Assembly: GCA_025965715.1 (NCBI GenBank)
Contig: JAOPWJ010000193.1
Span: 1 to 49,198, forward strand
Length of the DNA: 49,198 nt
DNA from: Blastococcus sp.
Lineage (GTDB): Bacteria > Actinomycetota > Actinomycetes > Mycobacteriales > Geodermatophilaceae
Direction: 5' to 3'
Part shown: piece by piece, positions 28,347-47,493 of the stretch
Position numbering within the stretch: the first letter of the stretch is position 1
Layout of the letters: every line of letters starts with the position of its first letter
Notes under the pieces: model-generated
Database searches by the model: none
The model's input: only the letters and a program-made list of their open reading frames with translations
Told to the model about the DNA's origin: nothing
Translations under genes and position numbers: made by a program

Positions 28347-31175
28347 GTGTCCGAAGCCACTGTTGACGTCGCGGACCTCCGTCGTAACGGCGGGCCAGCC
28401 GGTGCCGATCCTGACGGCCGTGCCGACGACGCGCCCCTGCGCGAGGACATCCGGGTCCTCGGCCGGGTGCTCGGCGAGGTCATCGGCGAGCAGGCCGGGA
28501 TCGACGTCCTCGACCTGGTCGAGTCCACCCGCGTGGAGTCCTTCGCGGTCCGCCGCTCCGAGGTAGCCCGTCCCGCACTGGCCGACCGGCTCTCCGGCCT
28601 CGACGTCCGCGCGGCCAACCACGTCATCCGGGCGTTCAGCCACTTCTCCGTGCTGGCCAACCTCGCTGAGGACATCCACCACGAGCGGCGGCGGCGCTTC
28701 CACCGCCGCGAGGGCTCACCGCCGCAGCAGGGCAGCCTGGCCGCGACCTTCGCGCTGCTCGACCAGCACGACATCCCCGACGAGGTGGTCTCCCGCGAGC
28801 TGGCCGGAGCCCTCGTGTGCCCGGTCGTCACGGCGCACCCCACGGAGGTGCGGCGCAAGACGATCTTCCAGGTGCAGCGACAGATCACCGACCTGTTCCG
28901 CCAGCGCGACCGGGCGGCGCCGGGCGAGCTGGACGAGCAGGAGTGGTCGGCGCACCTGTGGCGCTCGGTGCTCACCCTGTGGCAGACGGCCCTGCTCCGG
29001 CTGTCCCGGCTGCGGCTGCAGGACGAGATCGACGAGGCGCTGCGCTACTACGAGCTGTCGTTGTTCGACGTCGTCCCGGCCATCAACGCCGAGGTGCGCC
29101 GGGCCCTGGCCCAGCGCTGGCCGGAGGCATCGCTGCCGTCCCGGCCGATGCTGCTGCCCGGTTCGTGGATCGGCGGGGACCGCGACGGCAACCCCTTCGT
29201 CACGGCCGACGCCCTGCGCCGCGCCACCACCCGGCAGGCCGAGACGGCGCTGGCCCACCACCTCGCCGAGCTGGAGGCCCTGCGCGACGAGCTGTCCATG
29301 TCCGACCGTCTGGTCACGCCGACGCCGGAGCTCTACGCCATGGCGGAGGCGTCCCGCGACGACTCGCCCTTCCGTGGTGACGAGCCCTACCGGCGGGCGA
29401 TGAACGGCATGCACGCCCGCCTGGCCGCCACCGCGCGGGCCGTCCTGGGCCGGGTGCCGGGGTCGGCGCCGCACGCCGAGCTGACCCCCTACGACTCACC
29501 CGACGAGCTCCGCGCCGACCTCGACGTCGTGGACGCCTCGCTGCGCAGCCACGGGGCGGGGCCGCTGGCCGACCACCGGCTGCTGCGCCTTCGGGAGGCC
29601 GTCGAGGTCTTCGGCTTCCACCTCTGCGGGCTGGACCTGCGGCAGAACTCCGCCGTCCACGAGGAGGTCGTGGGAGAGCTGCTGGCCTGGGCCGGCGTCT
29701 GCGACGACTACGCGGCGCTCGACGAGGCAGCCCGGGTGGAGCTGCTGGCCGGCGAGCTGACGATGCGCCGTCCGCTGGTCCGTCCCGGCGCGGAGCTGTC
29801 CGAGCTGGCCCGCGGCGAGCTCGACGTGGTGGTCGCCGCGGCCGAGCAGATGGCCCTGCTGGGGCCGCGGGCCATCCCCAACTACGTGATCAGCATGTGC
29901 GAGTCCGTCAGCGACGTGCTCGAGGTCGCCGTCCTGCTCAAGGAGGTCGGGCTCCTCGACCCGGGCGCCGAAGGAGGGCCCTCCTGCCCGGTCGGCATCT
30001 CCCCGCTGTTCGAGACCATCGACGACCTCAAGGGCGCCGGGACGACGCTCGCCGCCATGCTCGACCAGCCGCTGTACCGCGCCCTGGTGACTTCCCGGGG
30101 CGACGCGCAGGAGGTCATGCTGGGCTACTCGGACAGCAACAAGGACGGCGGCTACCTCGCCGCCAACTGGGCCCTCTACCGCGCCGAGCTGGAGCTGGTG
30201 GAGGTGGCCCGGGCCAACGGCATCCGGCTGCGGCTCTTCCACGGCCGCGGCGGCACGGTCGGCCGGGGTGGTGGCCCGAGCTACGAGGCGATCCGGGCTC
30301 AACCCCCCGGCGCCGTCGCCGGTGCCCTCCGGATCACCGAGCAGGGCGAGGTCATCGCGGCCAAGTACGCCGATCCCGACCTCGCCCGGCGCAACCTGGA
30401 GGCGCTCGTCGCCGCCACCCTGGAGTCGAGCCTGCTCGACATCGAGGGTCTCGGGGACGACGCCGAGCCGGCGTACGCGCTGCTCGACGACCTCGCCGCG
30501 CGCGCCCAGCAGGCCTACCGCGCGCTGGTGCACGACACGCCGGGCTTCGTCGAGTGGTTCCGCGCGGCCACCCCCATCGGCGAGCTTGCCGAGCTGAACA
30601 TCGGCAGCCGCCCACCGTCGCGCAAGGCCGGCGACTCGATCGCCGATCTGCGCGCCATTCCCTGGGTGTTCAGCTGGTCACAGACGCGGATCATGCTGCC
30701 GGGCTGGTTCGGCACCGGCACGGCGCTGGAGAGCTATGTCGGCAGCGATGGCGGCGACAGCTCCGAGGACAAGCTGGCCCGCCTCCGCGAGCTGCATCGC
30801 CGCTGGCCGTTCTTCCGCACGGTGCTGTCCAACATGGGCATGGTGCTGGCCAAGACCGACCTGGGACTGGAGGCCCGCTATGCCGAGCTCGTGCCGGACG
30901 AAGAGCTGCGGTCCAGGGTCTTCGACCAGATCACCGCCGAGCACGAGCGCACCTGCCGGATGCTGCTGGCCGTCACCGGCGACGAGGACCTGCTGGCCGA
31001 CAATCCGTCGCTGGCCCGCTCGATCCGCAACCGGTTCCCCTACCTCGAGCCGCTGCACCACCTGCAGGTCGAGATGCTCCGGCGGCGGCGGGCGGGCGAC
31101 GACGACGAGCTGACCCGCCGCAACATCCAGCTGACCATCAACGGCGTCGCGACGGCCCTTCGGAACAGTGGCTGA
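28347..31175 (+). CDS. ppc: phosphoenolpyruvate carboxylase
   Basis: [75 protein letters not shown]-terminal [13 protein letters not shown]. Confidence 0.97.
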
Positions 31176-32274
31176 ACCGCATCCGGCCTGGAAAGCCGCA
31201 GCCGCCGGCGCAGAGCTGCGTGTGGCCACGACCTCGGCGCAGATCGCGGCCGCGGCGGAGCGGCTCTGCATGGCGCCCGCCGCGCTGGCCGCCGCGGTCG
31301 TCGAACCGGGCGGCCGGTTGCTGCTGGACGACGCCGGCAGCGCGGTGCTCCTCCGCCGGGGATGGGCCGACGACGGCGCCGCCGAGGCGGTGATCGTCTC
31401 CCGCGCCGGGGTGCCGCAGGACCACCCTGCCGTGCTGGCCACCGCCGCAGGCTGGGGGTGCGACCGGGTGCGGCACCAACTCACGGGGCGGACCGTGGCG
31501 GTGCCCGAGCCACCCGCCGACGCCCCACTGGTCGACCGCTTCCGCCACCTGGCCTCCCGTGCCGCCACGCAGGTGGAGACCGCCCTCGCCCTCGCCCGTG
31601 ACGTCGGCCAGGTGCACACCACGGACGACGGCGGCGCGGTGATGGCCGCCGACGAGGCCGCGCACGAGGCCGCGGTCGACGTCCTCGGTGGGCTGGGCGT
31701 GACCGTCCTCAGCGAGGAGCGGCCTGAGCAGCCCGTGCCACCCGGCCGGCCCTGGATCGTGCTGGACCCGCTCGACGGCACGGGCAACGTCGCCGCGGGG
31801 CTGCCGCCCTGGGCGTTCTCCGCGGCGCTCGTGTCCGCCGGGCGGCCGATCGCCGGGCTGGTCGCGGACCTCTCCTCCGGCCGGCGATGGGTGGGGGCCG
31901 AGGGTCGGGGCGCGCGGCGGGACGACGTTCCGGTGTCGCCCCGGACGGGCGGCACCGCGGTGCTGCCCGGCGCGCCCCCCCGCGACCCCGTCGTCCCCTC
32001 CACCGCCCGCCGGGTGCGCGTCACCGGCTGCACCGCCGTCGACCTCTGCCTCGTCGCCGACGGGTCGGCCGCCGCCTGGCTCGACGTCGACCGCAGCGGT
32101 AGCCATGTCTACGACGTCGCCGGGGGCCTCGCGGTCCTGCTGGCGGCCGGCGGGGTTGCCCTGAGGGCGGACGGCGAGCCGCTGCTGCTGGAGCCGCACG
32201 CGCACGACCTGATCCGGCTCGTCGCCGCCCCCGACGCGGCGTCCGCGCGGGAGCTGCTGCGCGCCATCGGCTGA
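31168..32274 (+). CDS. inositol monophosphatase-like phosphatase with ~130-aa uncharacterised N-terminal region
   Basis: IMPase motifs [37 protein letters not shown]; start overlaps ppc stop. Confidence 0.75.
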
Positions 32275-32276
32275 GC

Positions 32277-33689
32277 TCAGGCGCGTGCGGCGGCCGCCCG
32301 GATGGCGGCCATCAGCGACTCCCGCTCGTGCAGCGTCGTCCGGGCCCGGCCGCGGGTCGCGCCGAGGGCCTTCTCCGCCGCGTCGATGGCCCGCCAGTCG
32401 TCGAGCAGCACCGGGTCGGCGCCGCGGCGGATCAGCTCCTGCACCAGGTCACCCACGGGACCGCGGACCGCGAGCCGGCCCTCGGCGGCGTCGGCCAGCA
32501 GCGATGCGACCGACTCCCGCGCGTCGTGCTTGTTGTGCCCGACGACCCCGCTGGGCCCGCGCTTGATCCAGCCCGCCACGTACTCGCCAGGGGAGGGCTG
32601 CCCGCCGCGCAGCACCCGTCCGGCGTGGTGGGGAACCGTGCCCGATCGCTCGTCCACGGGCAGTCCGGGCAGGGGCAGGCCCCGGTAGCCGACCGAACGG
32701 ACGACGAGGTCGGCGGGCAGCTCCTCGAGCTCCCCGGTGCCCATCGCACGCCCGTCCCCGTCCACGGCGGTCCGCTCCACCTCCACGCCGGTGACGCGGT
32801 CCACGCCCAGCAGCCGCACGGGGCGCCGGTAGAACCGCAGGGTGAGCCGCGTCCGGCCGGGTTCGCGGGTGTGGGTCACCCAGTTCCGCAGCACGGCGAG
32901 GTTCCGGCTGACCACCCGGTCGGCGGCGGCGCGTTCCTCGCTGTCGGGATCGAGCACGAGGTCGGCGGGGTCGACCAGCACCGTGGCGCCGGCGAGCTCG
33001 CCCAGCTCGCGCAGCTCCTGGGTGGTGAAGGTGGCCTGCGCTGGACCGCGTCGGCCGATCACGGTGATCTGCTCCACCGGTGTCGCGGCCAGGGCGTCGA
33101 GGACGTGCTGCGGCATCTCCGTCGGCTCCAGCTCGTCGGCGGTGCGGGCGAGCACACGCGCGACGTCGAGCGCCACGTTCCCCACTCCGACCACGACCAC
33201 ATTCCGGACGCCGGCCAGCGCCGCCTCGACCCGCTCCCGGTCGGCGTCGGGATGGCCGCAGTACCAGGCGACGAACTCGGTGGCCGCCAGGCTGCCGGGC
33301 AGCTCCTCGCCGTCGATGCCGAGATGTCGGTCGAGGGCGGCGCCATAGGTGTAGACGACGGCGTCGACGTGGGCGCGCAGCTTCTCCAGCGGGATGTCCA
33401 CACCCACCTCGACGTTGCCGACGAACCGCACCCGCGGATGCTCGAGCGTGTGGTGGAGGGTGTCGCGGATGGCCCGCATCTTCGGGTGGTCGGGCGCGAT
33501 GCCGTGCCGGACCAGGCCGTAGGGAGTCGGCAGCCGGTCGATGAGGTCGACGGCCACCGGGACGGCGTCCTGGCGGGTCAGCGCGTCGGCCGCGTAGATG
33601 CCGGCCGGCCCCGCACCGACGACTGCGACGCGCAGTGGATGGTCCCCCGAGGGGGATGAGGGGGCACCGTCGTCCGACACGACTCGCAT
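32277..33689 (-). CDS. ferredoxin-NADP+ reductase, adrenodoxin reductase type (FprA-like)
   Basis: LRVAVVGAGPAGIYAADALTRQ...VDLIDRLPTPYGLVRHGIAPDHPKMRAIRDTLHHTLEHPRVRFVGNVEVG...GWIKRGPSGVVGHNKHDARESV. Confidence 0.93.
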   Translation of the reverse strand: MRVVSDDGAPSSPSGDHPLRVAVVGAGPAGIYAADALTRQDAVPVAVDLIDRLPTPYGLVRHGIAPDHPKMRAIRDTLHHTLEHPRVRFVGNVEVGVDIPLEKLRAHVDAVVYTYGAALDRHLGIDGEELPGSLAATEFVAWYCGHPDADRERVEAALAGVRNVVVVGVGNVALDVARVLARTADELEPTEMPQHVLDALAATPVEQITVIGRRGPAQATFTTQELRELGELAGATVLVDPADLVLDPDSEERAAADRVVSRNLAVLRNWVTHTREPGRTRLTLRFYRRPVRLLGVDRVTGVEVERTAVDGDGRAMGTGELEELPADLVVRSVGYRGLPLPGLPVDERSGTVPHHAGRVLRGGQPSPGEYVAGWIKRGPSGVVGHNKHDARESVASLLADAAEGRLAVRGPVGDLVQELIRRGADPVLLDDWRAIDAAEKALGATRGRARTTLHERESLMAAIRAAAARA

Positions 33690-33858
33690 CCTGACCCCGC
33701 GAGGCACCCGGGCACCAGCGCAGCGCGCCGGATTCTGCCGGCGTCAGCGGCAGGAGTAGTCCTGGTCCAGGACGTTCAGACGTCCAGGACGAGGCCAGCT
33801 GATCGGTCAGGCACGGGCTGGTCTTCGCGTCGGATGGCTCCCGAACAGCCCGGAACGG

Positions 33859-34668
33859 TCATTCCGCCTGGCAGGCGGGACACCAGTAGAGGTTGCGGCC
33901 GGCCATCACCTGGGTGCGGATCTCGATGCCGCAGATCCGGCAGGGCAGACCGGTGCGCCGGTACACGTACCGCGCGTCCTCCAGCTCCACGGCTCCACGC
34001 CGGCGGGCCCGGTGCTCGGGCCGGGTGGTCACGATCCGGCCCATCCGCACGCCGGCGCGCATCAGCGTGACCAGGTCGGCCCACATCCGCGACCAGAGAT
34101 CGGCATCGATGCCCCGGCCTGGCCGGAAGGGCGAGACGCCGTGCCGGAAGAGCAGTTCGGCCCGGTACACGTTGCCGACCCCGGCGAGCACCGACTGGTC
34201 CATCAACAGCGCGCCGACCGGGGTGCGGCTGGCGGCGATGCGCCGCCACGCGCGGGCGCCGTCGGGGCGCGGCCGCAGTGGATCGGGGCCGAGGCGACCG
34301 AGGATCGCGTCGGCCTCCGGCTCGGTCAGCACCTCGCAGGCCGTGGGTCCGCGGAGGTCGGTCCACACGCCGTCCCCGTGCGGTCCGTCGGCGACCCAGC
34401 GCATCCGCAGCGCACCGCGCGGGGGCGGGGGAGTGCCCGTGCCGCCGGTGTAGGTGCCGTAGAGCCCCAGGTGCACGTGCAGGACGTCGGTACCGAAGCG
34501 GGCGAACAGGTGCTTGCCGTAGGCGGAAACGGTGTCGAGGACGCGGCCGTCCAGCAGCGCCGCGCCCGCCTCGAACCGGCCCTGCGGGCTGGTGACGTGC
34601 ACCGGTCGGCCGGCGAACAAGGCGGACTGGTCGCGGGCGAGGCGGAAGAGAGTGTGTCCTTCAGGCAC
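33859..34668 (-). CDS. Fpg/Nei family DNA glycosylase (Nei-type, MPEGH N-terminus)
   Basis: MPEGHTLFRLARDQ...LLMDQSVLAGVGNVYRAELLFRHGVSPFRPG...C-terminal zinc finger CRICGIEIRTQVMAGRNLYWCPACQ. Confidence 0.93.
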   Translation of the reverse strand: MPEGHTLFRLARDQSALFAGRPVHVTSPQGRFEAGAALLDGRVLDTVSAYGKHLFARFGTDVLHVHLGLYGTYTGGTGTPPPPRGALRMRWVADGPHGDGVWTDLRGPTACEVLTEPEADAILGRLGPDPLRPRPDGARAWRRIAASRTPVGALLMDQSVLAGVGNVYRAELLFRHGVSPFRPGRGIDADLWSRMWADLVTLMRAGVRMGRIVTTRPEHRARRRGAVELEDARYVYRRTGLPCRICGIEIRTQVMAGRNLYWCPACQAE

Positions 34669-34704
34669 CGGCGGAGCGTAGGCACCCGACGGCCGGGCGG
34701 CACC

Positions 34705-35025
34705 TCAGTGGTCGGCGGTCGCCAGGCCGAAGTGTGGCCGGTCCTCGGCGGCGACCAGGTCGACCATCTCCGGATGCTGCTGGATGTAGTGGCGGATGAA
34801 GGAGCAGTAGGGGAGGACGTGCAGCCCGCGTTCCCGCGCCGCATCCAGCACCCCGGCGACCAGCGCCGTCCCGATGCCACGCCCACCCATGCTCGGGTCG
34901 ACCTCGGTGTGCGGGAGCGTCATTGCGGTGCCGTCGATGTGGTAGCTGGCCAGCCCGACGACGCGGTCGTCGAGCCGGACCTCGAAACGTCCCTTCTCGG
35001 GGACGTCCACCACCTTGGCGTCCAT
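34705..35025 (-). CDS. GNAT family N-acetyltransferase (short YjdJ-like type)
   Basis: GRFEVRLDDRVVGLASYHIDGTAMTLPHTEVDPSMGGRGIGTALVAGVLDAARERGLHVLPYCSFIRHYIQQHPEMVDLV. Confidence 0.9.
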   Translation of the reverse strand: MDAKVVDVPEKGRFEVRLDDRVVGLASYHIDGTAMTLPHTEVDPSMGGRGIGTALVAGVLDAARERGLHVLPYCSFIRHYIQQHPEMVDLVAAEDRPHFGLATADH

Positions 35026-35287
35026 CTGTTGCCCACCTTCCGTCCCTCCGGCGCCGTTGCTGGAGCCCGACGTGCGCTTGAACGGTAACCCCGGGGCGTG
35101 CCGACGCGCGCTATCCGGTACTGACGAGTCGCCTGTGGCTGAGGTTCCCTCTGCCGGTGCCGCCCTCGCCGCGTCGAGGGCGGTGGGGGAGGTCCCGGAC
35201 CTACGGTGTGCCGACCACGCCGGCCGCTCCTGACGAGCCGGCGGCGTACCCCGCCGTCCGGCGGGACCGGTGGGCTGAGGAGGACAC

Positions 35288-35485
35288 GTGGAGCTGCTGA
35301 TCGCCCTGCTCGGGGCCGCGCTGCTGCTGTCGGCGCTGGTGCTGCTCGCCGGTTACCGACGCCGGGGTTCCTCGCCCGCGGAGTTCTCGCCGGCCGACGC
35401 GGCTCGGAGCGAGCGCGCCCGACCGGCCGAGGCGTCGCCCTCGGGGAGCACCTGGATGTTCGGCGGGGGCGGCGGTCTCGGCTAG
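35288..35485 (+). CDS. small single-pass membrane protein
   Basis: GAGGAG SD 6-7 nt upstream of GTG; ELLIALLGAALLLSALVLLAGYRRR followed by polar region and glycine-rich C-terminus. Confidence 0.5.
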   Translation: MELLIALLGAALLLSALVLLAGYRRRGSSPAEFSPADAARSERARPAEASPSGSTWMFGGGGGLG

Positions 35486-35543
35486 AGCTGGACGGGGACG
35501 ACGGCACTTCCGCGGAGGTCGTTGCCCTGACTAAGTTCTTCGC

Positions 35544-36269
35544 ATGGCGGCTACCGGGAGCGACCGCAACGGGACGCAACCCCTCGGTGACGTGATGAGC
35601 CGGGTGGCCAGGCACCTGCAGGAGGAGCACGGCGACGTCGAGGGCACCCTGAAGGCGATCACGTCCGCCGCCGTGCACACCGTGCCGAATGCCGAGCAGT
35701 GCGGCATCAGCTACGTCATCCGCCGGTCCAAGATCCAGCCGCGGGCGTGGACCGGCGATCTCCCCAAGGAGGTCGACGCCCTGCAGGAGAGGCTCGGGCA
35801 GGGGCCCTGCATGGACGCCGTGTGGGAGCGGGAGATCGTCCGCGTCGACGACGTCGGCGCCGAGGAGCGGTGGCCCGAGTTCGCTCGTCAGGCGTCGGAG
35901 CTGGGGGTCGGCAGCATGATGTGCTTCCGGCTCTTCGTCGTGGGGGACAACCTCGGCGCCATGAACCTGTACGCCTCCACGCCCGGCGCGTTCGACGACG
36001 AGTGCCAGGAGATCGGGCAGATCCTCGCCGCGCACGCCGCCGTGGCGTTGGCCGGCGCTGAGCACGAGGCGGACCTGCGCGCCGGGATGAACAACCGGGA
36101 CCTGATCGGGCAGGCGAAGGGCATCCTGATGGAGCGGCACAAGCTGACCGCTGCGCAGTCGTTCGACGTGCTCGCCCGCGTCTCGCAGGAGATGAACCGG
36201 AAGCTGGTCGAGGTGGCGCGGGAGCTGACAGAGACCGGGGCGGTCCTCGGGAACAGTGGCCGCGAGTGA
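35544..36269 (+). CDS. GAF and ANTAR domain-containing protein
   Basis: GAF-like N-terminal half; ANTAR C-terminus NNRDLIGQAKGILMERHKLTAAQSFDVLARVSQEMNRKLVEVARELTETG; TAAGTT-N6-ATG start. Confidence 0.9.
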   Translation: MAATGSDRNGTQPLGDVMSRVARHLQEEHGDVEGTLKAITSAAVHTVPNAEQCGISYVIRRSKIQPRAWTGDLPKEVDALQERLGQGPCMDAVWEREIVRVDDVGAEERWPEFARQASELGVGSMMCFRLFVVGDNLGAMNLYASTPGAFDDECQEIGQILAAHAAVALAGAEHEADLRAGMNNRDLIGQAKGILMERHKLTAAQSFDVLARVSQEMNRKLVEVARELTETGAVLGNSGRE

Positions 36270-36422
36270 GATGGCGGCGGCTGTCCGGCCCGATCAGGTG
36301 ACCGCCACCCTGGCCACCCCGGCATCGGAGGACGTCGTCAGCGCCGTCCTCGGCACCTCCGCTGCGGGCCGTGCCGGATCGACTTCGCCCGCGCGGAGGG
36401 CGCTCGAGGCCTCTCCGGTGCT

Positions 36423-36563
36423 CACGACATCCGGGCAGGGATCACCTGGGGCGAGCAGCACGTCGGTGCCCGCCAGGTGTTCGGTGCCCGCCAGGTGTTC
36501 GCGGACGCCGGCTTCGAGGTCGGCCGCCCCACTCGCCGGCGGGTGGTCACGCGGATCGACCTC
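36423..36563 (+). pseudogene. remnant of a GNAT acetyltransferase C-terminus with tandem duplication
   Basis: In-frame HDIRAGITWGEQHVGARQVFGARQVFADAGFEVGRPTRRRVVTRIDL resembles a GNAT C-terminus; no start or N-terminal domain, and an 18-bp perfect tandem duplication. Confidence 0.4.
36463..36498. repeat. 18-bp perfect tandem duplication
   Basis: TCGGTGCCCGCCAGGTGT x2, contiguous. Confidence 0.95.
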
Positions 36564-36589
36564 CCGGACAGCGCTCCGGCCGGATCCGG

Positions 36590-36898
36590 TCAGGGACGGG
36601 GATTGGTGCGCGTCCAGCCGCGCTCGTCCCGCCGGGGGCCCTGGGCTGCCCGGCACCGCCGGCACACGGACTGCACCTCCTCCGCGTGCCGCCCGGACTC
36701 CGGCTGGACGTCGGCCCAGCTGACGTGGGGGAAGCGGGCCAGTCGGGATCTGCTCAGAGCCAGCCGGCAGACGGTCTCGTTGCGGCCTCGTTCCCATGCG
36801 TGGACCTCGCCGGCGGGGTACCGGATCCCGTCGTCGGGGTCGACCCACGTGCCCGAGGCCGCCACCGCGGCGGTGCCCACTGCCATGAACGCGGCCAT
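36590..36898 (-). CDS. hypothetical protein with CxxC
   Basis: VHAWERGRNETVCRLALSRSRLARFPHVSWADVQPESGRHAEEVQSVCRRCRAA; looks like a recurrent actinobacterial hypothetical family. Confidence 0.55.
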   Translation of the reverse strand: MAAFMAVGTAAVAASGTWVDPDDGIRYPAGEVHAWERGRNETVCRLALSRSRLARFPHVSWADVQPESGRHAEEVQSVCRRCRAAQGPRRDERGWTRTNPRP

Positions 36899-36998
36899 AC
36901 CCGCACTGAGCCAACCCGACCGGGCGGAATACCGGATCCGGCGGACTACCCGACCGGCGGGGGGCCGACGACAGGAACCGGCCTGGCGATGGACGGCG

Positions 36999-37643
36999 TC
37001 AGGCGTCTTGCCCGACCTCTCGGTCGGACGCGGTCACGTCGCCCGTTCCGGGGGTGCCATCGGCGAGGGCGTAGCGCAGGTACACGGTGCCGTTCGGAGT
37101 GGCCGCGGGTGGCTCGAGGAGGGTGAGGTTCGTGGGCACCGCGCCACCGTCGAACACCTTCTTCCCGACGCCGAGCACGAGCGGGTGCACCCAGAGGTCG
37201 AGACGGTCGAAGAGCTTCTCGCGCAGGAGGGTCTGCACGAGGTTCAGGCTCCCGACGACCTTCACGTGCTCGTGCCGGCGCCGGATCTCGCGCACGGCGC
37301 CGGCCAGGTCCGGGCCGAGCTGCGTGGCCCCGGCCCACGAGAGGTCGGGTCTGCCGCGGGAGGCCACGTATTTCGGAATGCTGTTGAACAGCGTGGCGAT
37401 CTCGTTGTCCTCGCCGCTCTCCTGGTGCGGCCAGTAGGAGGCGAAGATGTCGAACGTCCGCCGGCCGAGCAGCAGGGCGTCGGTGCCCTCGTATGCGGCA
37501 CTGACCTGCGCCCCCGAGACCTCGTCCATCATGGGCGCCTGCCAGCCGCCGAAGGGAAACCCCGCCGAATCCTCCTCGGGGCCGCCGGGCGCCTGCCCGA
37601 CGAGGTCGAGGGTGGCGAACAGCTCGATGTGGATGAGGCCCAT
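36999..37643 (-). CDS. dihydrofolate reductase family (RibD C-terminal-like) protein
   Basis: DALLLGRRTFDIFASYWPHQ...YVASRGRPDLSWAGATQL...VVGSLNLVQTLLREKLFDRLDLWVHPLVLGVGKKVFDGG. Confidence 0.9.
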   Translation of the reverse strand: MGLIHIELFATLDLVGQAPGGPEEDSAGFPFGGWQAPMMDEVSGAQVSAAYEGTDALLLGRRTFDIFASYWPHQESGEDNEIATLFNSIPKYVASRGRPDLSWAGATQLGPDLAGAVREIRRRHEHVKVVGSLNLVQTLLREKLFDRLDLWVHPLVLGVGKKVFDGGAVPTNLTLLEPPAATPNGTVYLRYALADGTPGTGDVTASDREVGQDA

Positions 37644-37768
37644 GCGCTTCTCCCGATGAGTCGGTTGTCTCGGTCGGGGGGTAGACCTGCGGGCGCCGGC
37701 GAACTCATCGCTGCGGCGGCAGCCGGCTTCCTACTGGCCGACCCTGACCTGCGCAGTGCTGCGTCCGC

Positions 37769-37807
37769 GGCGGGAATCGAACCTGCGGCGTGCGGTGGAG
37801 GAAGGCG
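37769..37807 (-). repeat. degenerate 3'-half copy of tRNA-Arg(CCT); candidate old attachment-site repeat
   Basis: Ungapped 30/39 match to 44127-44165 within the intact tRNA-Arg, same orientation; T-arm GCAGG-TTCGATT-CCCGC. Confidence 0.5.
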
Positions 37808-38231
37808 TCCAGAGAGGTTCCGATCGTCGATGGTCATCGACGGGCCTGCCGTCTGAGCGGGCGATGCGCCACGCCGGACCTCGTGCGGACTGGATGCGGA
37901 CGCGACTGCGGGGCCGAACCCCCTTGCTGATGCCGGGTAGACCGCTGGGTGGCAGAACGGCAGCAGTCGCGGATCCGGCGCCGGTAGCTCTGGTTCGGCC
38001 TCCCTTTCCCGGCCCGTGTGGCATGGAGCTCCGCCGAGCGTGTCGGCTCGATACCGGGACGGTTCCGAGGACCTGCGCCAGCGGACGAGCGGCGGCGCAG
38101 TCGGCGGCCGCCGCTGATCGCGCGGTTCGGCAGCCGGACGGCAGGCGCTCGCAGTGGAACCGCAGGGTGGCGGCGGTGGGCTGGGTGCGTCGCCGGGACC
38201 GGTCCGGCGCCACTCGAGGAGGCAGCTGGTC

Positions 38232-38954
38232 ATGTCCGCTCGCACGCTGTGCGTCCTGCGCACCGCCGGTTCCGCAGTCATGATGACCGCCGCGCTGGTG
38301 GCTTGCACGACGGGGCAGCCTGAATCGACGGCTGCCCCGTCGGGCTCCTCGACCGCCAACCCGGGCGACGCCGTGCCGCCCGCGCAGCTGCCGGCGGACT
38401 CGCCGCTGGACCCGGGCCGTTACGTGGTCTCCGTCGCGGACGCACCTGTCGCGCCGTTGTTGCCTGTGCTGTCCGTTCCCGAGGGGTATGCGGCCATCGG
38501 CAACGGAGTCGGCGTCGGCGCCGACGACCTCGCGCGCTACTTGTGGGTCTGGGACGTCAACAGCGTGTTCGCCCACCCGTGCGACGCGACTCCCGAGCCG
38601 GTCGGGCCCTCCGTGGCCGACCTCGCCGAGGCCCTCGCCGCCCAGGCGTTGCGCACCAGCACCGATCCCGTGACGGTCACCGTCGGCGGGTACGACGGGC
38701 TGTACGTGGAGTTGTCCGTTCCAGGCGAGGTTGACGCCAGCGCTTGCCCCAGTGGCGTTCTGGGCCTCTGGCCGGGGCGTGCGCAGAGTTGGGGGGAGAT
38801 CCTGGGGCAGGTCGACATGGTGTGGATCGTCGACGTGGACGGTCAGCGCCTCGTCTTCGATGCAGCCTATGAACCGGCCACCAGCCCGGACGAGGTGGCC
38901 GAGCTCGAGGAGATGGTCGCCACTGCGACGTTCGTGCCGGCCGAAGGCTCGTGA
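38232..38954 (+). CDS. putative lipoprotein of unknown function
   Basis: Signal peptide with lipobox (MSARTLCVLRTAGSAVMMTAALVAC-TTGQPESTAAPSG), Thr/Ser/Pro linker; GAGGAGG upstream of ATG. Confidence 0.75.
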   Translation: MSARTLCVLRTAGSAVMMTAALVACTTGQPESTAAPSGSSTANPGDAVPPAQLPADSPLDPGRYVVSVADAPVAPLLPVLSVPEGYAAIGNGVGVGADDLARYLWVWDVNSVFAHPCDATPEPVGPSVADLAEALAAQALRTSTDPVTVTVGGYDGLYVELSVPGEVDASACPSGVLGLWPGRAQSWGEILGQVDMVWIVDVDGQRLVFDAAYEPATSPDEVAELEEMVATATFVPAEGS

Positions 38955-38977
38955 GGGTCCGCGGGGGAACTCGCAGG

Positions 38978-41900
38978 TCAGGGCACATCGCTACATGTGG
39001 GCTGGTCGTCGCGCCCGGGCAGATAGCGGTCCCACTCCGCCGGCGTGAGGTCCCGCCCCGCGACGATGGCGCAGGCCTCGTCCAGCCACACCGATGGGTC
39101 CAGCGGGTAGCGCCGGCCGGAGCGGTCGCCGCTGAGCACGACGAGTTCGTCCCCGGCTCCGGGCACGAGGTGGGTGTAGCCGGTTCCGGGGTCGCCGGAC
39201 GCCGGCAGCGCCTGGGCGCGGACGAGCCCTCGCTCGACGTCGAAGAGGGCGACCGTGCCATCGCTGCCGGCCGTCGCGAGTGTCCGTCCGTCGTCCAGCC
39301 ACTCCGTCTGCAGCGCCCAGCCGTCGTGCACCCGCGCGGGTGCCCAGGCCAGTTGCCAGGTCGTGGTGTCGAAGACGTACAGGAAGTTGCTGCCGCCGGC
39401 GGCGAGGAACCGGCCGTCGGGTGAGAAGGAGAGGTCGAGAGCCCAGTCCACCCGGGTCAGTGGCAGCCGCCGTTCCACGTAGAGGCCGGCCGCATCCAGG
39501 ATCACGAGCTCGGAGTCGGCCGTGTTCGCCACGGCCAGCACGCTCCGATCGGGGCTCGTCTCGATCGTTTGGACGCCGCCACCGATCTCGATCCGTGTGC
39601 CGACGTGCCAGGTCGTGGTGTTCACCGGCACCAGGTAGCCCCCTCGGCGGCTATCGGCAGCCGCCCCGGCAGGCGTCGACCAGGTGCTTTCCTCGATCTT
39701 CCCCTCGGCGGCGAGGAGCAGCGTCGAGCCGTCCGGCGTCCACCCCGACGACCGCACGACCGTGGCCGGGAGCGGCCGGTCGCCGACGCCGGCATCGGCA
39801 TCGGGTGGCAGCACGATCTCCTTGATCACCTCGTGTGTCCTGGTGTCGAGGACCGTCGTGCCCAGGCCCCAGGTGACCGCCACCATGGAGCGGTCCGGGC
39901 TGACCGTCACGGAGGACCCGAAGGGCGAGTCCTCGGTGGTGTCGCCGAGCACCACCTGGTCGACGACCTCGCCGGTGTCAGGGTCGAGGAAGGTGGCCGC
40001 GACGCTGAGCGTTTCCGGTCCCGGCGACTCCCTGCGGATGTCACTCGGGCTCGCCCCTGGCCGCGTGGGGGCCACGATCAGGCCGCCGGGCACCGCCTGG
40101 GGGCGGTTGGCGATCCAGCGTCCGTCCAGCCCGGGGTTCGACGTCCCGAGGCCCGCTTCGGCGGTCATGTTCCACGTGAGGATCGTCCGGTCCAGGCCGA
40201 TGGTGATCAGTCGATCGCCGGAGGGATCCACCTCCGCGTGGATGATGTCGCCGGCGTGGCCGGTGAGCTGTCCCCGCTCGGTCCACCGACCGGTGCTCGG
40301 ATCGATGTCCCAGACGACAATCAGCGGGCCGTGGCCGACGGTCGCCCCCCACCCGCCGTCGGGTGCCACGACGACGTCCCGCACTGGCGAGCGGTGAGCG
40401 TCCAGATGCTGCGCGGTGCCCTCGCGGTCGAAGAGGGTGACCCCGCCGTCGAGCCACAGCTGTGCGGCTCCGCTGCCCGTGGCCCGGTACTCCAGGACCC
40501 TGCCCGGGCCGTCCTGCACGGGTGTCGGAGTCTGCTTCCCGTCGGCCAGGTCGATCATGATCGCCGGGTCGGTTGCCCTGTCGCTCCACAGGACGGCGGA
40601 GCTCCCGTCGTCGGTGAAGTCGACCTGCAGCTCCCCGAACGGCGCCGGGTACGTTCCGCCGATCCCCGTCTTCCGCGTCGTTCCGTCCTCAGCATCGACG
40701 TCGGTCAACGTCCACCGCGAGGAATCTTCCGGATCGTCGCGACCGGGTGTGGACAGCAGCCAGGTGACCCGATGGCCGTCGGGGCTGAACACCCCGCCCA
40801 CGGGCAGTCCACCGAGCTCGTCCCCCCGCGTGAGCACCCGGCCCGTTCCATCCGCGTGGACGATCCGGAGCCAGTAGCCGCGGGAGTCCTGCCCCCCACC
40901 TATGACTGCGTCCTCGATCGGGGAGGGCGCGGAGTTCGACCAGGTGCCCCAGTTCGGGATGTCGAATGCCACCTCGGGCCGAGCCGACGAGTCGACCGCC
41001 CACGTGATGACCTGTGATTCGGTGCGCAGGAACAAGGTGCGACCGCCGTTGGCCAGGTAGGCCGCCCCCAGGGGATCCTCGTCGAAGGCCACCGCCCGCT
41101 CTGCCCGCCCATGCTCGGTGAGCGCACCGAGCAGCGCGTCCTGCGTCTCCGGCGTCTCCGCGAGCCGCACCGCCTGGACGGCGAGCAGCAGGGAGACGTC
41201 CACGCTGCTGGCAGTTGCGGAGAGAGCCGCCAGCCGCTTGGCGTCGGCCACCAGCGACGCCTGCTGCGCCTCCCGCTGGGCCCGCACGGCGTCTCGCTGG
41301 GCACGCACGGCGAGGAATGTGGCGACCAGGGCGACGACGAGCACGACGGCCAGGCCTCCTGCCAGCCGCCGCGTTCGATGCCGGGCCGCTGCCTCACGAT
41401 CGGCACGACGCTGGGCGGCGTTCAGATCGGCGTCCGCCGCGGCCCGGGAAGCGTCGAGGAACTGCTGCTCGACCGGCGTGACCACGGCATCGGAGTCCTC
41501 CGACCAGTCGAGGGCCGCGGTCAACCGGGCCCCCCGGTACAGCTCGTCGTCCGGACGCCCGGACGCATCCCACTCCCGGGCGGCCGGGTCCAGGTGCCGG
41601 CGGACGGCGCGGCCCGCGGCGTCGTCCTCGAGCCAGCGGACCAGTCGTGGCCAGGCGGTGAGCAGCGCCTCGTGTGCGACCTCGAGCCTGTTCTCGTCCA
41701 CCGAGAGCAGCCGGCGGCCCACGAAGGATTCGACGACCTGGCGGCGGGGCGTAGCCGGGTCCTCCGCCAGGCCGAGCTCGGCCAAGGGAACCCGGCGGCG
41801 GACCAGCGCGCCGCCGTTGTCGGTGTCCGCGAGCCGGACGAACAGTCGGCGGGCGAGCCCTCGGCCGGCGTCGTCGAGCGCTCCGTACACGGCTTCGGCC

Positions 41901-43459
41901 GACCGGTTCAGCGCGCCGGCGACGCCTCCCGCCTCGAGGTAGCCCGCGAGGGTCAGGAGGTCGCCGCGCCGCCGTTCCCAGGTGCCCACCAGGGCGGTCG
42001 ACAACAGGGGCAGCGCGCCGAGCTGTCCGAGGACGTCGGCGACGACGGAGTCTGCGAGTTCGGGGTCCACCCGTAGCCCGACGGACCGGGCCGGTTCCGT
42101 CACGATTTCACGAAGCTCGGCGTCCGTGAGCGGTGGGACCAGGGCGAAGGCCGAGGCCAGTCGCTCGGTGAAGACCCGGTGCTCGGCGAGCCGACCGACG
42201 TGGTCGCCGCGGATCACCACGACGCACCGGACCACGATGCCGTCGTCCACGAGGCCGGCGACGGCGTCGAGGAACTCCGTCCGTTCGGCCGGGTCGATGC
42301 CTGGCGCCCAAAGCTCCTCGAACTGGTCGCAGACCAGCAGGACGGGTTCGGCCGGCGATGGATCGCCGGTCAGCTGGGCGAGGGCGTCGACCGGCGCCCG
42401 GCCGGGGGTGAGGATCACTGGCCGCCACGACTGACTGCCCGGAAGCCCACCGGCCGCCAGCGCCGGGACCAGCCCGGCGCGGACCGCGGAGGACTTTCCG
42501 GCCCCGCTCGGGCCGCTGACCACCAGGACCGGCGCGTCGACCAGGCGGGCCACCAGGCTCGCGATCAGCCGCTCGCGCCCGTGGAACAACGGCGCGTCGG
42601 CCGCCTCGTAGACGGCCAGCCCCTTGTAGGGGCACGCTCCCGGAGTCGGGGAAGCGTCGTCGCGCCTCGGATGCTGCGCGGTCCGCGGGGGAGCGTCGAG
42701 TGCCGGGTCCTGGGTGAGGATCGCGGCCTCCATGGCCCGCAGCCCGGGCCCGGGTCCGGCGCCGATCTCCTCGGCGAGCACGGCACGCGCGCGGCGTCCG
42801 GCCGCGAGGGCGTCAGCCTGCCGGCCGGCACGGTAGAGCGCCCACATGAGCAGGCGCCACCAGTCCTCGCGCAGCGGATCCGCGGCGACGAGGCCGTCGA
42901 GCTGCGGAAGCACCTCGGCGTGCGCCCCCAGCTGCAGGCGCGCCTCGAGCAACCCGGCGACGGCGCCGGCGTGCACCTGGCTCAACCGGCGCCGCTCGAC
43001 CCCGGCGAACGGAGCGCCCGGCCAGTCGGCGTAGGGCTCGCCCCGCCACAGGTCGACGGCGGCCGCGAGCTTCCGGGCCGCCTCCTCGAGGCGCCCGGAG
43101 GTGAGCAGGGCCCGCCCCTGGGCCGCGAGGCTGTCGATCCGCAGCGCGTCGATGGCGTCCCGCGGAACGGTCAGGGCATATCCGGGCCCGCGCCGAGCGA
43201 CGAACCGCCCGGTCGAGCCCCGCGGCCGGTCTGGCTCGAGGGAGCTACGCAGCTTCACGACGTGGATCTGCAGGGATTTCCGCGCGGTGGCTGGCGGGTC
43301 GCCGTCCCAGAGCGCCTCGGCCAGCGCGTCCAAGCTCACCGCACCGGAAGCCCCAGCCGTGAGGATCGCGAGCAGCAGGCGCTCCTTGGCGCCCGGCACG
43401 GTCAGCGGGACGCCGTCGTCAGTTCGGACCTCCAGCGGTCCAAGGACCGCGATGCGCAT
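38978..43459 (-). CDS. BTAD-type wHTH regulator / nSTAND NTPase / TM helix / WD40-like repeat protein (1493 aa)
   Basis: N-terminal MRIAVLGPLEVRTDDGVPLTVPGAKERLLLAIL (winged HTH + BTAD); VVSGPSGAGKSSAVRAGLVPAL Walker A; CDQFEELWAPGIDPAERTEFLDAVAGLV; LAGGLAVVLVVALVATFLAV TM; C-terminal repeats SPDGHRVTWLLS, DPSGDRLITIGLDRTILTWNM, SPDGRFLAAGGSNFLYVFDTTTWQ. Confidence 0.88.
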   Translation of the reverse strand: MRIAVLGPLEVRTDDGVPLTVPGAKERLLLAILTAGASGAVSLDALAEALWDGDPPATARKSLQIHVVKLRSSLEPDRPRGSTGRFVARRGPGYALTVPRDAIDALRIDSLAAQGRALLTSGRLEEAARKLAAAVDLWRGEPYADWPGAPFAGVERRRLSQVHAGAVAGLLEARLQLGAHAEVLPQLDGLVAADPLREDWWRLLMWALYRAGRQADALAAGRRARAVLAEEIGAGPGPGLRAMEAAILTQDPALDAPPRTAQHPRRDDASPTPGACPYKGLAVYEAADAPLFHGRERLIASLVARLVDAPVLVVSGPSGAGKSSAVRAGLVPALAAGGLPGSQSWRPVILTPGRAPVDALAQLTGDPSPAEPVLLVCDQFEELWAPGIDPAERTEFLDAVAGLVDDGIVVRCVVVIRGDHVGRLAEHRVFTERLASAFALVPPLTDAELREIVTEPARSVGLRVDPELADSVVADVLGQLGALPLLSTALVGTWERRRGDLLTLAGYLEAGGVAGALNRSAEAVYGALDDAGRGLARRLFVRLADTDNGGALVRRRVPLAELGLAEDPATPRRQVVESFVGRRLLSVDENRLEVAHEALLTAWPRLVRWLEDDAAGRAVRRHLDPAAREWDASGRPDDELYRGARLTAALDWSEDSDAVVTPVEQQFLDASRAAADADLNAAQRRADREAAARHRTRRLAGGLAVVLVVALVATFLAVRAQRDAVRAQREAQQASLVADAKRLAALSATASSVDVSLLLAVQAVRLAETPETQDALLGALTEHGRAERAVAFDEDPLGAAYLANGGRTLFLRTESQVITWAVDSSARPEVAFDIPNWGTWSNSAPSPIEDAVIGGGQDSRGYWLRIVHADGTGRVLTRGDELGGLPVGGVFSPDGHRVTWLLSTPGRDDPEDSSRWTLTDVDAEDGTTRKTGIGGTYPAPFGELQVDFTDDGSSAVLWSDRATDPAIMIDLADGKQTPTPVQDGPGRVLEYRATGSGAAQLWLDGGVTLFDREGTAQHLDAHRSPVRDVVVAPDGGWGATVGHGPLIVVWDIDPSTGRWTERGQLTGHAGDIIHAEVDPSGDRLITIGLDRTILTWNMTAEAGLGTSNPGLDGRWIANRPQAVPGGLIVAPTRPGASPSDIRRESPGPETLSVAATFLDPDTGEVVDQVVLGDTTEDSPFGSSVTVSPDRSMVAVTWGLGTTVLDTRTHEVIKEIVLPPDADAGVGDRPLPATVVRSSGWTPDGSTLLLAAEGKIEESTWSTPAGAAADSRRGGYLVPVNTTTWHVGTRIEIGGGVQTIETSPDRSVLAVANTADSELVILDAAGLYVERRLPLTRVDWALDLSFSPDGRFLAAGGSNFLYVFDTTTWQLAWAPARVHDGWALQTEWLDDGRTLATAGSDGTVALFDVERGLVRAQALPASGDPGTGYTHLVPGAGDELVVLSGDRSGRRYPLDPSVWLDEACAIVAGRDLTPAEWDRYLPGRDDQPTCSDVP

Positions 43460-44119
43460 GGACGGACGGTAGGCCCCTCCGGCCCTGCTCGGGGCCCCAT
43501 CGCGCCCGGGTAGGCCGACCGCAGAGCCTGTGACCGCACGATCGATGCGCACCGCTGGTTCGGCGATCAAGCCGCGGCTCTAGTGCGCGGCAACTCCGTC
43601 CACCCGTCGACGGCCGGGCCGCGGCTGCGGCCGGTCCGGAGGGCCTCGTCGCGCGGACGTGCCCGCGCCCCGCGCTCTCAACGTCGTCTCTTCCTCGTTA
43701 CCCGACGACACTGTCGGTGCCTTGTCCGTTCTGCTGCACCGTTGGGAGTCCACTCTCGAAGCACGGAGGCTCCGTGCCGTTGCAGCGAGCGTCACCCAGT
43801 CCGTCCTGCGCGTGCGGTGGCTGCAGACGAAGACATCTGCGTCCCGGTCCCCGCAGCGCGGAAGGCGCGCTCCGTGGCTCCCCGTGCCCGGCCTCCTCCT
43901 CCCGTCCCAGGGCCTCTGCAGGCGCTCGCGGCAGTCGTCGGGGCGGTGACCGCCACCGGGCTTCTTCCTGTCGTTGACCCTCGCAGCGTCCGAGGTACGC
44001 AACATCGACCCCAACCGGCCCGAGAGGGACCTCGCCTCACTGACCGCCCCTTCCGGAGGCCGGTTCAGCAGGGTCCGGCTGACCAGAACAGTTGGGGAGC
44101 AACGGTTAGCGCCTGCTGG

Positions 44120-44192
44120 TGCCCCCGGCAGGATTCGAACCTGCGGCACACGGTTTAGGAAACCGATGCTCTATCCCCTGAGCTACGGGGGC
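44120..44192 (-). tRNA. tRNA-Arg(CCT)
   Basis: GCCCCCGTAGCTCAGGGGATAGAGCATCGGTTTCCTAAACCGTGTGCCGCAGGTTCGAATCCTGCCGGGGGCA folds as a cloverleaf; anticodon CCT. Confidence 0.95.
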
Positions 44193-44318
44193 TCGTCGGC
44201 GCGGAACCGACCGGGGTACACGCCGAGATTAGCGGGCGGCCTCGGCCACCCGGCGCGCACCGCCGGGACGCGGCTGCTCCGGATCCCGATGAAGAGCCGG
44301 GACAACTAGCGTCTGGGC

Positions 44319-44702
44319 ATGGTGTTCGCGCTGGCCGAGCTCGCGCTCGTCGCGCTGGTCCTCGGGCTGCTGGCCCTCGGCGGCTGGGTGGCGTGGACGG
44401 CGCTGCGATCGGACACGACCGGATCGTCGGTCCGGCTCCGCCTGCCACCGCGCCCCCGAGCCGAGCTGGCGGCGGCCATCTCGCAGGCCCGCTGGCAGCC
44501 GGCGCACGACGAGGTGGACGGCGTCACGCGGGTGCTGGTGCGACGTACCTACACGGGGCTGGACGGCCGACCGGCGGTGCTCGAGGAGCGGGTTCTCGAG
44601 ACGTTCCCGGCCGCGGACCCGGCGTGGGAGGCGCAGTTCACCGAGGCGATGGCGAAGGCCCGGTACCGCTGCGCCTACCTGAACGCCGAAGAGGCGCAGT
44701 AG
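44319..44702 (+). CDS. hypothetical protein with N-terminal TM helix
   Basis: MVFALAELALVALVLGLLALGGWVAWTALRS...; TAGCGT-N6-ATG start context. Confidence 0.65.
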   Translation: MVFALAELALVALVLGLLALGGWVAWTALRSDTTGSSVRLRLPPRPRAELAAAISQARWQPAHDEVDGVTRVLVRRTYTGLDGRPAVLEERVLETFPAADPAWEAQFTEAMAKARYRCAYLNAEEAQ

Positions 44703-45555
44703 CTGCACGGGGCTCCGTCGCCCCTGGCTGGTCCGCCTCGTCGGGCGCCGTACCGGCGTCGTCGGTCTGCGCCGCCCGGCGGGCGGTCTGCTCGACCAGC
44801 CGCACGATGGTCTGCGGCCGGTCCGACATCGGGGAGTGCCCGGCCGCGAGCAACGGCCGGAAGCGTGAGCGAGGAACCAGCGGGAGATAGCGGACGGTCT
44901 GCCCCGAGGCGATCCAGTCGGCGGTGCCCTGCACGAGCAGGACGGGGCAGTCGATCCGGTCCATGCCGCGCGGCACGTCCACCAGCAGCGCCCAGAACAG
45001 GCTGCGCCAGTAGTCGCGCGAGTCGGCGAAGCCCTCCCGCGCGCCGATCGCCTCCTCGCGGCTCGTGGACCACGGGCGGGCCTTGAGCGGAAGCAGCAGC
45101 GCCGTCCTTCCCCACCGGGAGCGTGACAGCGGCTCGATCAGCGGTGCGGCCACCCGCCCGACGACGCGAGCGATTGCCATTCCCGCGCCCTGCAGGACCC
45201 GCTCCGGCCAGATGTTGAGCCCGGACGGGGCGATCGCGACCACCGAGCGGGCGCGGCCTCGGCGAGCCAGCTCCAGGGCGACGCGCGCGCCCAGCGAGTT
45301 GCCGAGTACGTGCACCCGGCCGACATCCTCGGCGGCGAGGGTGCGCTCGACCGCATCGGTGATCGCCGCGACCGTCGGCCGGACCTCCAGGTGCGGCGAC
45401 CGCCCGGCTCCGGGCAGCTCGACGTTGAGGACGTCGAAGCGCTCGGCCAGCGCGGGGAGGACGGCGGTGAAGTCGCGCCGTGAACTGCCCCAGCCGTGCA
45501 GGAGCAGCAGCGGCTCGCCTTGACCGGAACGGACGACGGACAGCGGTGCGGTCAC
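44638..45555 (-). CDS. alpha/beta hydrolase
   Basis: PLLLLHGWGSSRRDFTAVLPALAERFDVLNVELPGAGRS, VHVLGNSLGARVALELARRG, LLVQGTADWIASG, GHSPMSDRP. Confidence 0.9.
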   Translation of the reverse strand: MTAPLSVVRSGQGEPLLLLHGWGSSRRDFTAVLPALAERFDVLNVELPGAGRSPHLEVRPTVAAITDAVERTLAAEDVGRVHVLGNSLGARVALELARRGRARSVVAIAPSGLNIWPERVLQGAGMAIARVVGRVAAPLIEPLSRSRWGRTALLLPLKARPWSTSREEAIGAREGFADSRDYWRSLFWALLVDVPRGMDRIDCPVLLVQGTADWIASGQTVRYLPLVPRSRFRPLLAAGHSPMSDRPQTIVRLVEQTARRAAQTDDAGTAPDEADQPGATEPRAATAPLRRSGRRSGTGPSPSPR

Positions 45556-45561
45556 GCCCGC

Positions 45562-45567
45562 GGTCTA
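45562..45567 (-). promoter_or_regulatory. putative -10 box (TAGACC) for the alpha/beta hydrolase
   Basis: TAGACC-N6-GTG(45555) on the minus strand. Confidence 0.4.
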
Positions 45568-45579
45568 CCCGCCCTGGCG

Positions 45580-45585
45580 TAAGCC
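45580..45585 (+). promoter_or_regulatory. putative -10 box (TAAGCC) for the Sir2 gene
   Basis: TAAGCC-N6-GTG(45592). Confidence 0.4.
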
Positions 45586-45591
45586 GACCCC

Positions 45592-46524
<933 letters not shown>

Positions 46525-46572
46525 GCGCGACTGACCCGGCGGGCCGGCCGCGCCTGGCCGAGGATGGCTGCG

Positions 46573-47493
46573 ATGCAGACCTTCCTGCCGGTGCCCGACT
46601 TCGAGGACGGTGCGCGGCTGCTGGACTCCCCGCGGCTGGGCAAGCAGCGGGTGGAGACGTTGCAGATCCTGCGCGCGCTCGAGCTGCCGGACTACGGCTG
46701 GGCCAGCCATCCCGCCGTCCGGATGTGGCGCGGCCGGACACCGGCCCTGGTCGCCTACGGCCTGGCCATGGTCCGGGTATGGCGGGAGCGCGGCTTCGCC
46801 GACACCACGGAGATCCAGATCGGCGAGTTCGCCCCCGATGTCGTCGGCGCGGCACAGAAGGATCTGGCCGCCGAGGGGCTGCTGCCGTCGTGGGTGGGCG
46901 ACGAGGCGCTGCACCGGTCCCACCGGTCGAACCTGATCGCCAAGGACCCCGACTTCTACCGTCCCCGCTTCACCGAACTGTTCGGGCCCGAACCCGACGA
47001 TCTGCCCTACGTCTGGCCCGAGCCCGACCAAGTCGCGCCGCCGGTCGTCCCCGACGGCGTGCGGGTCTGGGTGGTGCGGCCTCGGTCGCACAACGAACTC
47101 GGGGCCTGCCTCGCTGCCGGGATCGTCGGCCTGGGCACCCAGTCGGGTATCGACGTCGACGCCACGGGACTGTCGGCCGGCGAGCTGCGGGCGCTGTCGA
47201 AAGAGCTCTCGGGACGGCGCCCGGCGAAGGACCTGCGCCAGCTGTCGGCGTTCCTCGACGAGATGCGTCCGGGGAACCCGGTCGGCATGCCGATCGAGCA
47301 CGGCGCCGGGCTGCTGCTCGGTGAGGTCATGGGGGAGTACCTGTTCCAGGGCCGCGAGCTGTTGCCGCACCGGCGACCGGCCCGCTGGGACCGCGTGGTG
47401 CCCCGCTCGGCCGCGCGGCCGCCGGCCACGCTGCAGGACCCCCGCGCGCTCTTCCAGGTCACGCTGGACCCGGCTGTCGTCTACCCGCGCTGA
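46573..47493 (+). CDS. MSMEG_6728-type (T4 endonuclease V/Pyr_excise-like) N-terminal domain fused to a C-terminal Mrr-N/PUA-like domain
   Basis: MQTFLPVPDFEDGARLLDSPRLGKQRVETLQILRAL...HPAVRMWRG then C-terminal WVVRPRSHNELGACLAAGIVGLGTQSGIDVDATGLSAGELRAL...PGNPVGMPIEHGAGLLLGEVMGEYLFQGRELLPHRRPARWDRVVPRSA. Confidence 0.65.
   Translation: MQTFLPVPDFEDGARLLDSPRLGKQRVETLQILRALELPDYGWASHPAVRMWRGRTPALVAYGLAMVRVWRERGFADTTEIQIGEFAPDVVGAAQKDLAAEGLLPSWVGDEALHRSHRSNLIAKDPDFYRPRFTELFGPEPDDLPYVWPEPDQVAPPVVPDGVRVWVVRPRSHNELGACLAAGIVGLGTQSGIDVDATGLSAGELRALSKELSGRRPAKDLRQLSAFLDEMRPGNPVGMPIEHGAGLLLGEVMGEYLFQGRELLPHRRPARWDRVVPRSAARPPATLQDPRALFQVTLDPAVVYPR

Follow-up and report, generated by a model that had tools for sequence, protein, structure and literature searches.

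A very probable remnant of an integrative element at tRNA-Arg(CCT) in Blastococcus sp., with an eroded attachment site and an integrase stump

The window, i.e., the whole stretch of DNA analysed here, is a 49-kb contig of the draft genome G000 (3.5 Mb in 263 contigs, 80% complete, 73% G+C). Between a tRNA-Arg(CCT) gene and a displaced copy of its 3' half, it holds a segment of about 6.3 kb that is very probably an old integrative element (genomic island), which lacks a complete integrase and carries an intact cargo (Table 1). A genomic island bracketed in this way had been proposed in the initial annotation of the window, and the proposal is supported by the displaced tRNA copy, by the gene arrangement in two genomes of the same genus (G010 and G002), and by a stump of a tyrosine integrase. 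The segment has an intact tRNA at one end and a 3' fragment in the same orientation, and it is absent at the site in relatives. A complete tyrosine integrase gene is lacking within it; the presence of a mere fragment identifies the segment as a remnant rather than an active island.

Table 1. Features of the tRNA-Arg(CCT) region in the window
Feature	Position	Strand	Evidence
DHFR/RibD-like gene beyond the island, presumably once next to the tRNA	36999-37643	-	Pfam RibD_C; adjoins intact tRNA in G010 and G002
Far attachment site, the displaced and eroded second 3' half of the tRNA	37762-37803	-	32/42 identical
Island between the two tRNA copies, about 6.3 kb (very probable)	37804-44119		Empty-site arrangement in G010/G002; absent at collinear G006 locus
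Two-gene unit common to the window and G006 (other place there), sharp ends	38130-43509		84-86% nucleotide identity
Lipoprotein-like gene, cargo	38232-38954	+	No Pfam, NCBIfam, or PADLOC match; lipobox read by eye
BTAD-nSTAND1-WD40 gene (1493 aa), cargo	38978-43459	-	Pfam
Integrase stump, 28 codons, residues 70-97 of the G003 tyrosine integrase	43523-43606	+	68% identity, E = 1.8e-6
Possible second integrase fragment, weak (active-site region, residues about 326-347)	43615-43680	+	59% over 22 residues
Repeated block, 3' 42 nt of tRNA-Arg(CCT)	44120-44161	-	Block edge from att copies of relatives
Intact tRNA-Arg(CCT), attachment-site gene	44120-44192	-	ARAGORN and Rfam (tRNA, 66.9 bits)

The intact tRNA-Arg(CCT) is recognized by both ARAGORN and Rfam at the place first assigned to it. 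The 39-base match described initially at 37769-37807 is indeed exactly 30/39, but its last four bases (37804-37807) lie outside the repeated block; the natural block comprises 42 nt, with one edge at the 3' end of the tRNA and the other in the anticodon loop. The displaced copy keeps the orientation of the tRNA and is located on its 3' side, in agreement with the geometry initially described. Its inner edge (position 42, anticodon loop) coincides with that of most fresh att copies in relatives. Nothing of the tRNA 5' half is left at the copy, and an Rfam tRNA search at the remnant gave no match even at E <= 10, a result of little weight for half a tRNA whose T stem is broken.

The empty site that the initial annotation had suggested looking for, joining the DHFR-like gene to tRNA-Arg, is found in G010 and G002. 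In these genomes the gene has the same relative orientation and is separated by 107 and 88 bp, respectively, from the 3' end of an intact tRNA-Arg(CCT); the distance to the degenerate copy in the window is 118 bp. An aligned stretch upstream of the gene was dropped as additional evidence; it is similar in a Streptomyces locus as well as in G010 and G002, and only adjacency and spacing are therefore counted. Some properties of this comparison count against the island: both genomes belong to species different from that of the window, both have the tRNA and a variable DNA block inverted relative to the outer flanks, and the DHFR-like gene is sporadic (4/16 genus genomes). The protein relatives of this gene are actinobacterial. 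Among the named actinobacterial loci with the gene, none has tRNA-Arg(CCT) beside it; in two of 80 (L162 and L181) tRNA-Trp or tRNA-Pro is found at a distance of 170-204 bp, and L162 and the window (36999-37720 region) look alike immediately upstream of the gene. Beyond the DHFR-like gene, no extra tRNA copy was found in the window, G010, or G002 (best 22/42), so a reading of the gene as an older tandem island is not supported.

The nearest relative, G006, shares about 80-87% nucleotide identity with the window on both sides of the island, across most of 30001-36887 and across 44117-47018, and its locus has no counterpart of 36888-44116. The 7.3 kb of G006 at the island position is unrelated and encodes an HD-domain response regulator, a histidine kinase, two LysR regulators, and a GGDEF-EAL protein; directly after the break in collinearity, G006 has its own eroded tRNA copy (31/46). 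The initial annotation had held that a syntenic core at 37.8-44.1 kb in relatives would speak against an island; 0/15 same-genus genomes show it as such a core. G006 also lacks a counterpart of window 44694-45613 (0.9 kb). A 314-aa ORF at 44675-45619, flanked by the 44319 gene and the Sir2 gene and without a Pfam or NCBIfam match, is missing there in G006 and has relatives in part of the family only. As to orientation, tRNA-Arg(CCT) and its 3' variable DNA are inverted relative to the flanks in most genus members (e.g., G002, G003, G005, G007-G013, and G015), the non-inverted arrangement being that of the window, G004, and G006 (region 34705-44702; L059-L078 compared); both orientations are also present in other genera of the family.

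The initial annotation was mistaken in seeing no integrase: the stump is part of a tyrosine integrase whose clade is found beside tRNA-Arg(CCT), several members sitting within complete elements of 5.9-24.4 kb. The region before the tRNA (43510-44119), most of which had been described as having no convincing coding sequence, holds integrase remains, namely, the stump and possibly a weak second fragment. The stump aligns as RACDRTIDAHRWFGDQAAALVRGNSVHP (window) with RAFDRKIDAQRWLDEQTVALVRGNYVHP (G003 integrase), the E value in Table 1 being computed over the window and 20 loci of relatives. Integrase profiles run against six frames of the window also have their best place at the stump, with a modest E of about 7e-4. 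Its best single matches (L096, L097, L106, L112, and L098) form one subgroup; four of them adjoin an intact tRNA-Arg(CCT) and one (G075) adjoins a 41/46 copy of the tRNA 3' half. In a DNA alignment, the stump region scores 148 with the G003 integrase gene (shuffle mean 75, s.d. 12), and its alignments to other integrase genes exceed shuffles by no more than about 3 s.d. The reading direction of the stump, towards the tRNA, is that of the intact integrase gene. The second fragment is a single match with E = 0.004 in a 0.8-kb target. Other low-scoring integrase matches in the region were discarded as compositional (long, of low identity, in the wrong frame). Because most of the integrase protein is missing, the stump cannot function. 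Counting against the island are the lack of an excisionase or intact integrase in the window, the stump's mere 28 convincing codons, and the lack of any G+C contrast between the island and its surroundings.

Intact counterparts of the stump occur elsewhere in the family. In G003, a 411-aa tyrosine integrase ends 37 bp from tRNA-Arg(CCT), and another contig carries a second tRNA 3' half at 43/46. If this integrase is counted as one of its own best 14 family matches, 13 of them are neighbours of tRNA-Arg(CCT) and one is at a contig end without a tRNA; more distant relatives lie beside tRNA-Met, tRNA-Ala, or tRNA-Arg(CCG). Second tRNA copies at 43/46 occur at distances of 24.4 kb (G106), 5.9 kb (G122), 19.7 kb (G134), 7.9 kb (G119), and 21.9 kb (G117), in every case on the same strand and on the 3' side of the tRNA; G012 has a second copy 7.8 kb away and G031 a 38/46 copy at 0.9 kb. 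Identity stops at position 42-43 in most att copies of relatives and at 48-49 in G012 and G119. In this family, tRNA-Arg(CCT) is a repeatedly used landing site with an integrase clade of its own, specificity being read from gene position. Literature searches turned up no account of this tRNA serving as an island site in the group.

Two further observations concern this site. G001 (L059:16278-16559) carries a truncated integrase 72 bp from tRNA-Arg(CCT), 47% identical over 94 residues to L099; unlike the window stump, it is encoded on the same strand as the tRNA. The elements of G119 (L212) and G122 (L208-L209) each contain a 69-aa excisionase-like helix-turn-helix ORF (domain read by eye), which adjoins the integrase in G119 and lies at the far end of the element in G122.

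A tyrosine integrase would have inserted the element by recombining its attP, which carried the 3' 42 nt of tRNA-Arg(CCT), with the chromosomal tRNA gene. The element's copy would have restored the tRNA 3' end, displacing the original end by 6.4 kb to its present place next to the DHFR-like gene, the presumed earlier neighbour of the tRNA. The displaced end would then have decayed without selection to 76% identity. The integrase gene would have been reduced to a short fragment; its counterpart in an intact relative points at the tRNA and stops tens of bases short of it. With the integrase and a good second att site both missing, self-excision would not be expected, and the island is probably immobilised. 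The cargo was perhaps added later and perhaps itself cut the integrase.

The att copy and the integrase match the initial description of the element as old and eroded, but the cargo does not: both of its genes are intact, under purifying selection (dN/dS relative to the G006 copies of 0.31 for the BTAD-nSTAND1-WD40 gene and 0.49 for the other), and probably still in use. In G006 the two genes occur together on another contig; the DNA to the left of the unit there was not found in other genus genomes. At L086:949-9086, the unit in G006 adjoins two giant ORFs (1085 and 1621 aa) without Pfam, NCBIfam, or PADLOC matches. The lipoprotein has a 77% amino acid relative in G006, no other close relative in 100 genomes, and none in the plasmid collection. 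For the nSTAND protein, searched with its C-terminal half, the matches elsewhere reach only 50% and 43% (among 61 genomes). Synonymous divergence between the window and G006 is 0.30 and 0.29 for the cargo genes and 0.48-0.64 for seven core genes; on this basis, the cargo was probably exchanged after the split of the two lineages and moves separately, and codon-usage constraint may also account for the lower values.

It is almost an even question whether the region is layered, an earlier element having left the att copy and the stump, and the lipoprotein-nSTAND unit having come later by recombination or transposition into the old island. The unit's position elsewhere in G006, with homology confined to the unit and stopping exactly at both ends, and its lower synonymous divergence are as expected from such an origin, and so is the start of the stump 13 bp past the end of the unit. 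This last proximity suggests that the arrival of the cargo, or a deletion beside it, cut the integrase. However, neither transposase nor repeats are seen at the unit ends, and a single element could have brought the cargo and then lost its integrase through a deletion ending near the unit. A layered origin would change the carrier of the cargo, not the reading of the region as an island. It is conceivable, albeit rather improbable, that the two genes constitute a self-contained, horizontally moving module, possibly with a conflict or sensing role, which passes from island to island without depending on the island integrases, given their two places in two related genomes, the sharp ends, the intact genes, and the synonymous divergence below that of the core.

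If the tRNA gene had been duplicated locally and one copy had decayed, with no integration, this would likewise leave a partial copy on the same strand, but it is very unlikely: a unit of 42-49 nt recurs at the far end of integrase-bearing elements in relatives, the integrase stump next to the tRNA is oriented as expected, and the 5' half is absent at the copy. Chance is excluded as the source of the displaced copy, even though tRNA T arms resemble each other and 30/39 is modest, since the score is never reached by shuffles, a gap in scores exists in real DNA, the top genome-wide match is this very tRNA, and the adjacent DHFR-like gene adjoins an intact tRNA in G010 and G002. The runner-up place for the 39-base match in the whole window, on both strands, is 23/39, and 200 dinucleotide-model shuffles of the window gave a top score of 29, typically 24-25, versus 32/42. 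In 734,144 real positions of the relatives' loci there are no scores of 26-29, and the 23 places scoring at least 30 are 19 tRNAs and four att copies. Across the own genome, the top non-self match of 37740-37840 is the same tRNA-Arg(CCT) (E = 0.007). Shuffles, relatives' DNA, and the genome-wide search thus count against the chance T-arm similarity that the initial annotation had named as a possible objection.

The mechanism of integration at a tRNA is textbook knowledge, and the island itself is a newly recognised example of a well-known kind. Anticodon-centred crossovers are one of the two commonest kinds among the islands found by Islander (PMC4383910). Like the islands of that collection, the window island has an intact tRNA, a displaced 3' fragment in the same orientation, a crossover in the anticodon loop, and a tyrosine integrase by the tRNA; unlike theirs, its integrase is a stump and its fragment is eroded to 76%, so the integrase filter of Islander would reject it (PMC4383910). 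It agrees with the family elements of G003, G106, G122, G134, G119, and G117 in tRNA, block, strand, side, and integrase clade, whereas their integrases are intact and their far copies nearly identical (43/46). Tyrosine-integrase elements of actinomycetes usually insert at tRNA 3' ends (PMC3218068). The window island resembles actinomycete integrative and conjugative elements (AICEs; PMC3218068) in its actinobacterial host, its tyrosine integrase, and the tRNA 3' end, but contains no rep or tra genes: Pfam reveals on it only the BTAD-nSTAND1-WD40 gene and the family-less lipoprotein-like ORF.

Work on bacterial STAND proteins has dealt with them chiefly as transcriptional regulators; some are assigned to conflict systems (PMC7159879). 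As no PADLOC model for anti-phage defence matches the island, a defence role is not claimed. The larger cargo protein shares with AfsR/SARP-type regulators an N-terminal SARP/BTAD region followed by a STAND NTPase, but it differs in its nSTAND1 domain and WD40-type propellers and scores 138 against the AfsR equivalog cut-off of 1430 bits. Judging from its domains, it might act as an AfsR/SARP-like NTP-gated switch with a propeller sensor.

An eroded tRNA island that a standard finder would miss is supportable by three independent lines, namely, the displaced copy, the empty-site arrangement, and the stump. The tRNA-Arg(CCT) hotspot predicts where variable cargo is to be located in other genomes of the family, and the probable separate mobility of the cargo provides a lead on a rare STAND-type protein.
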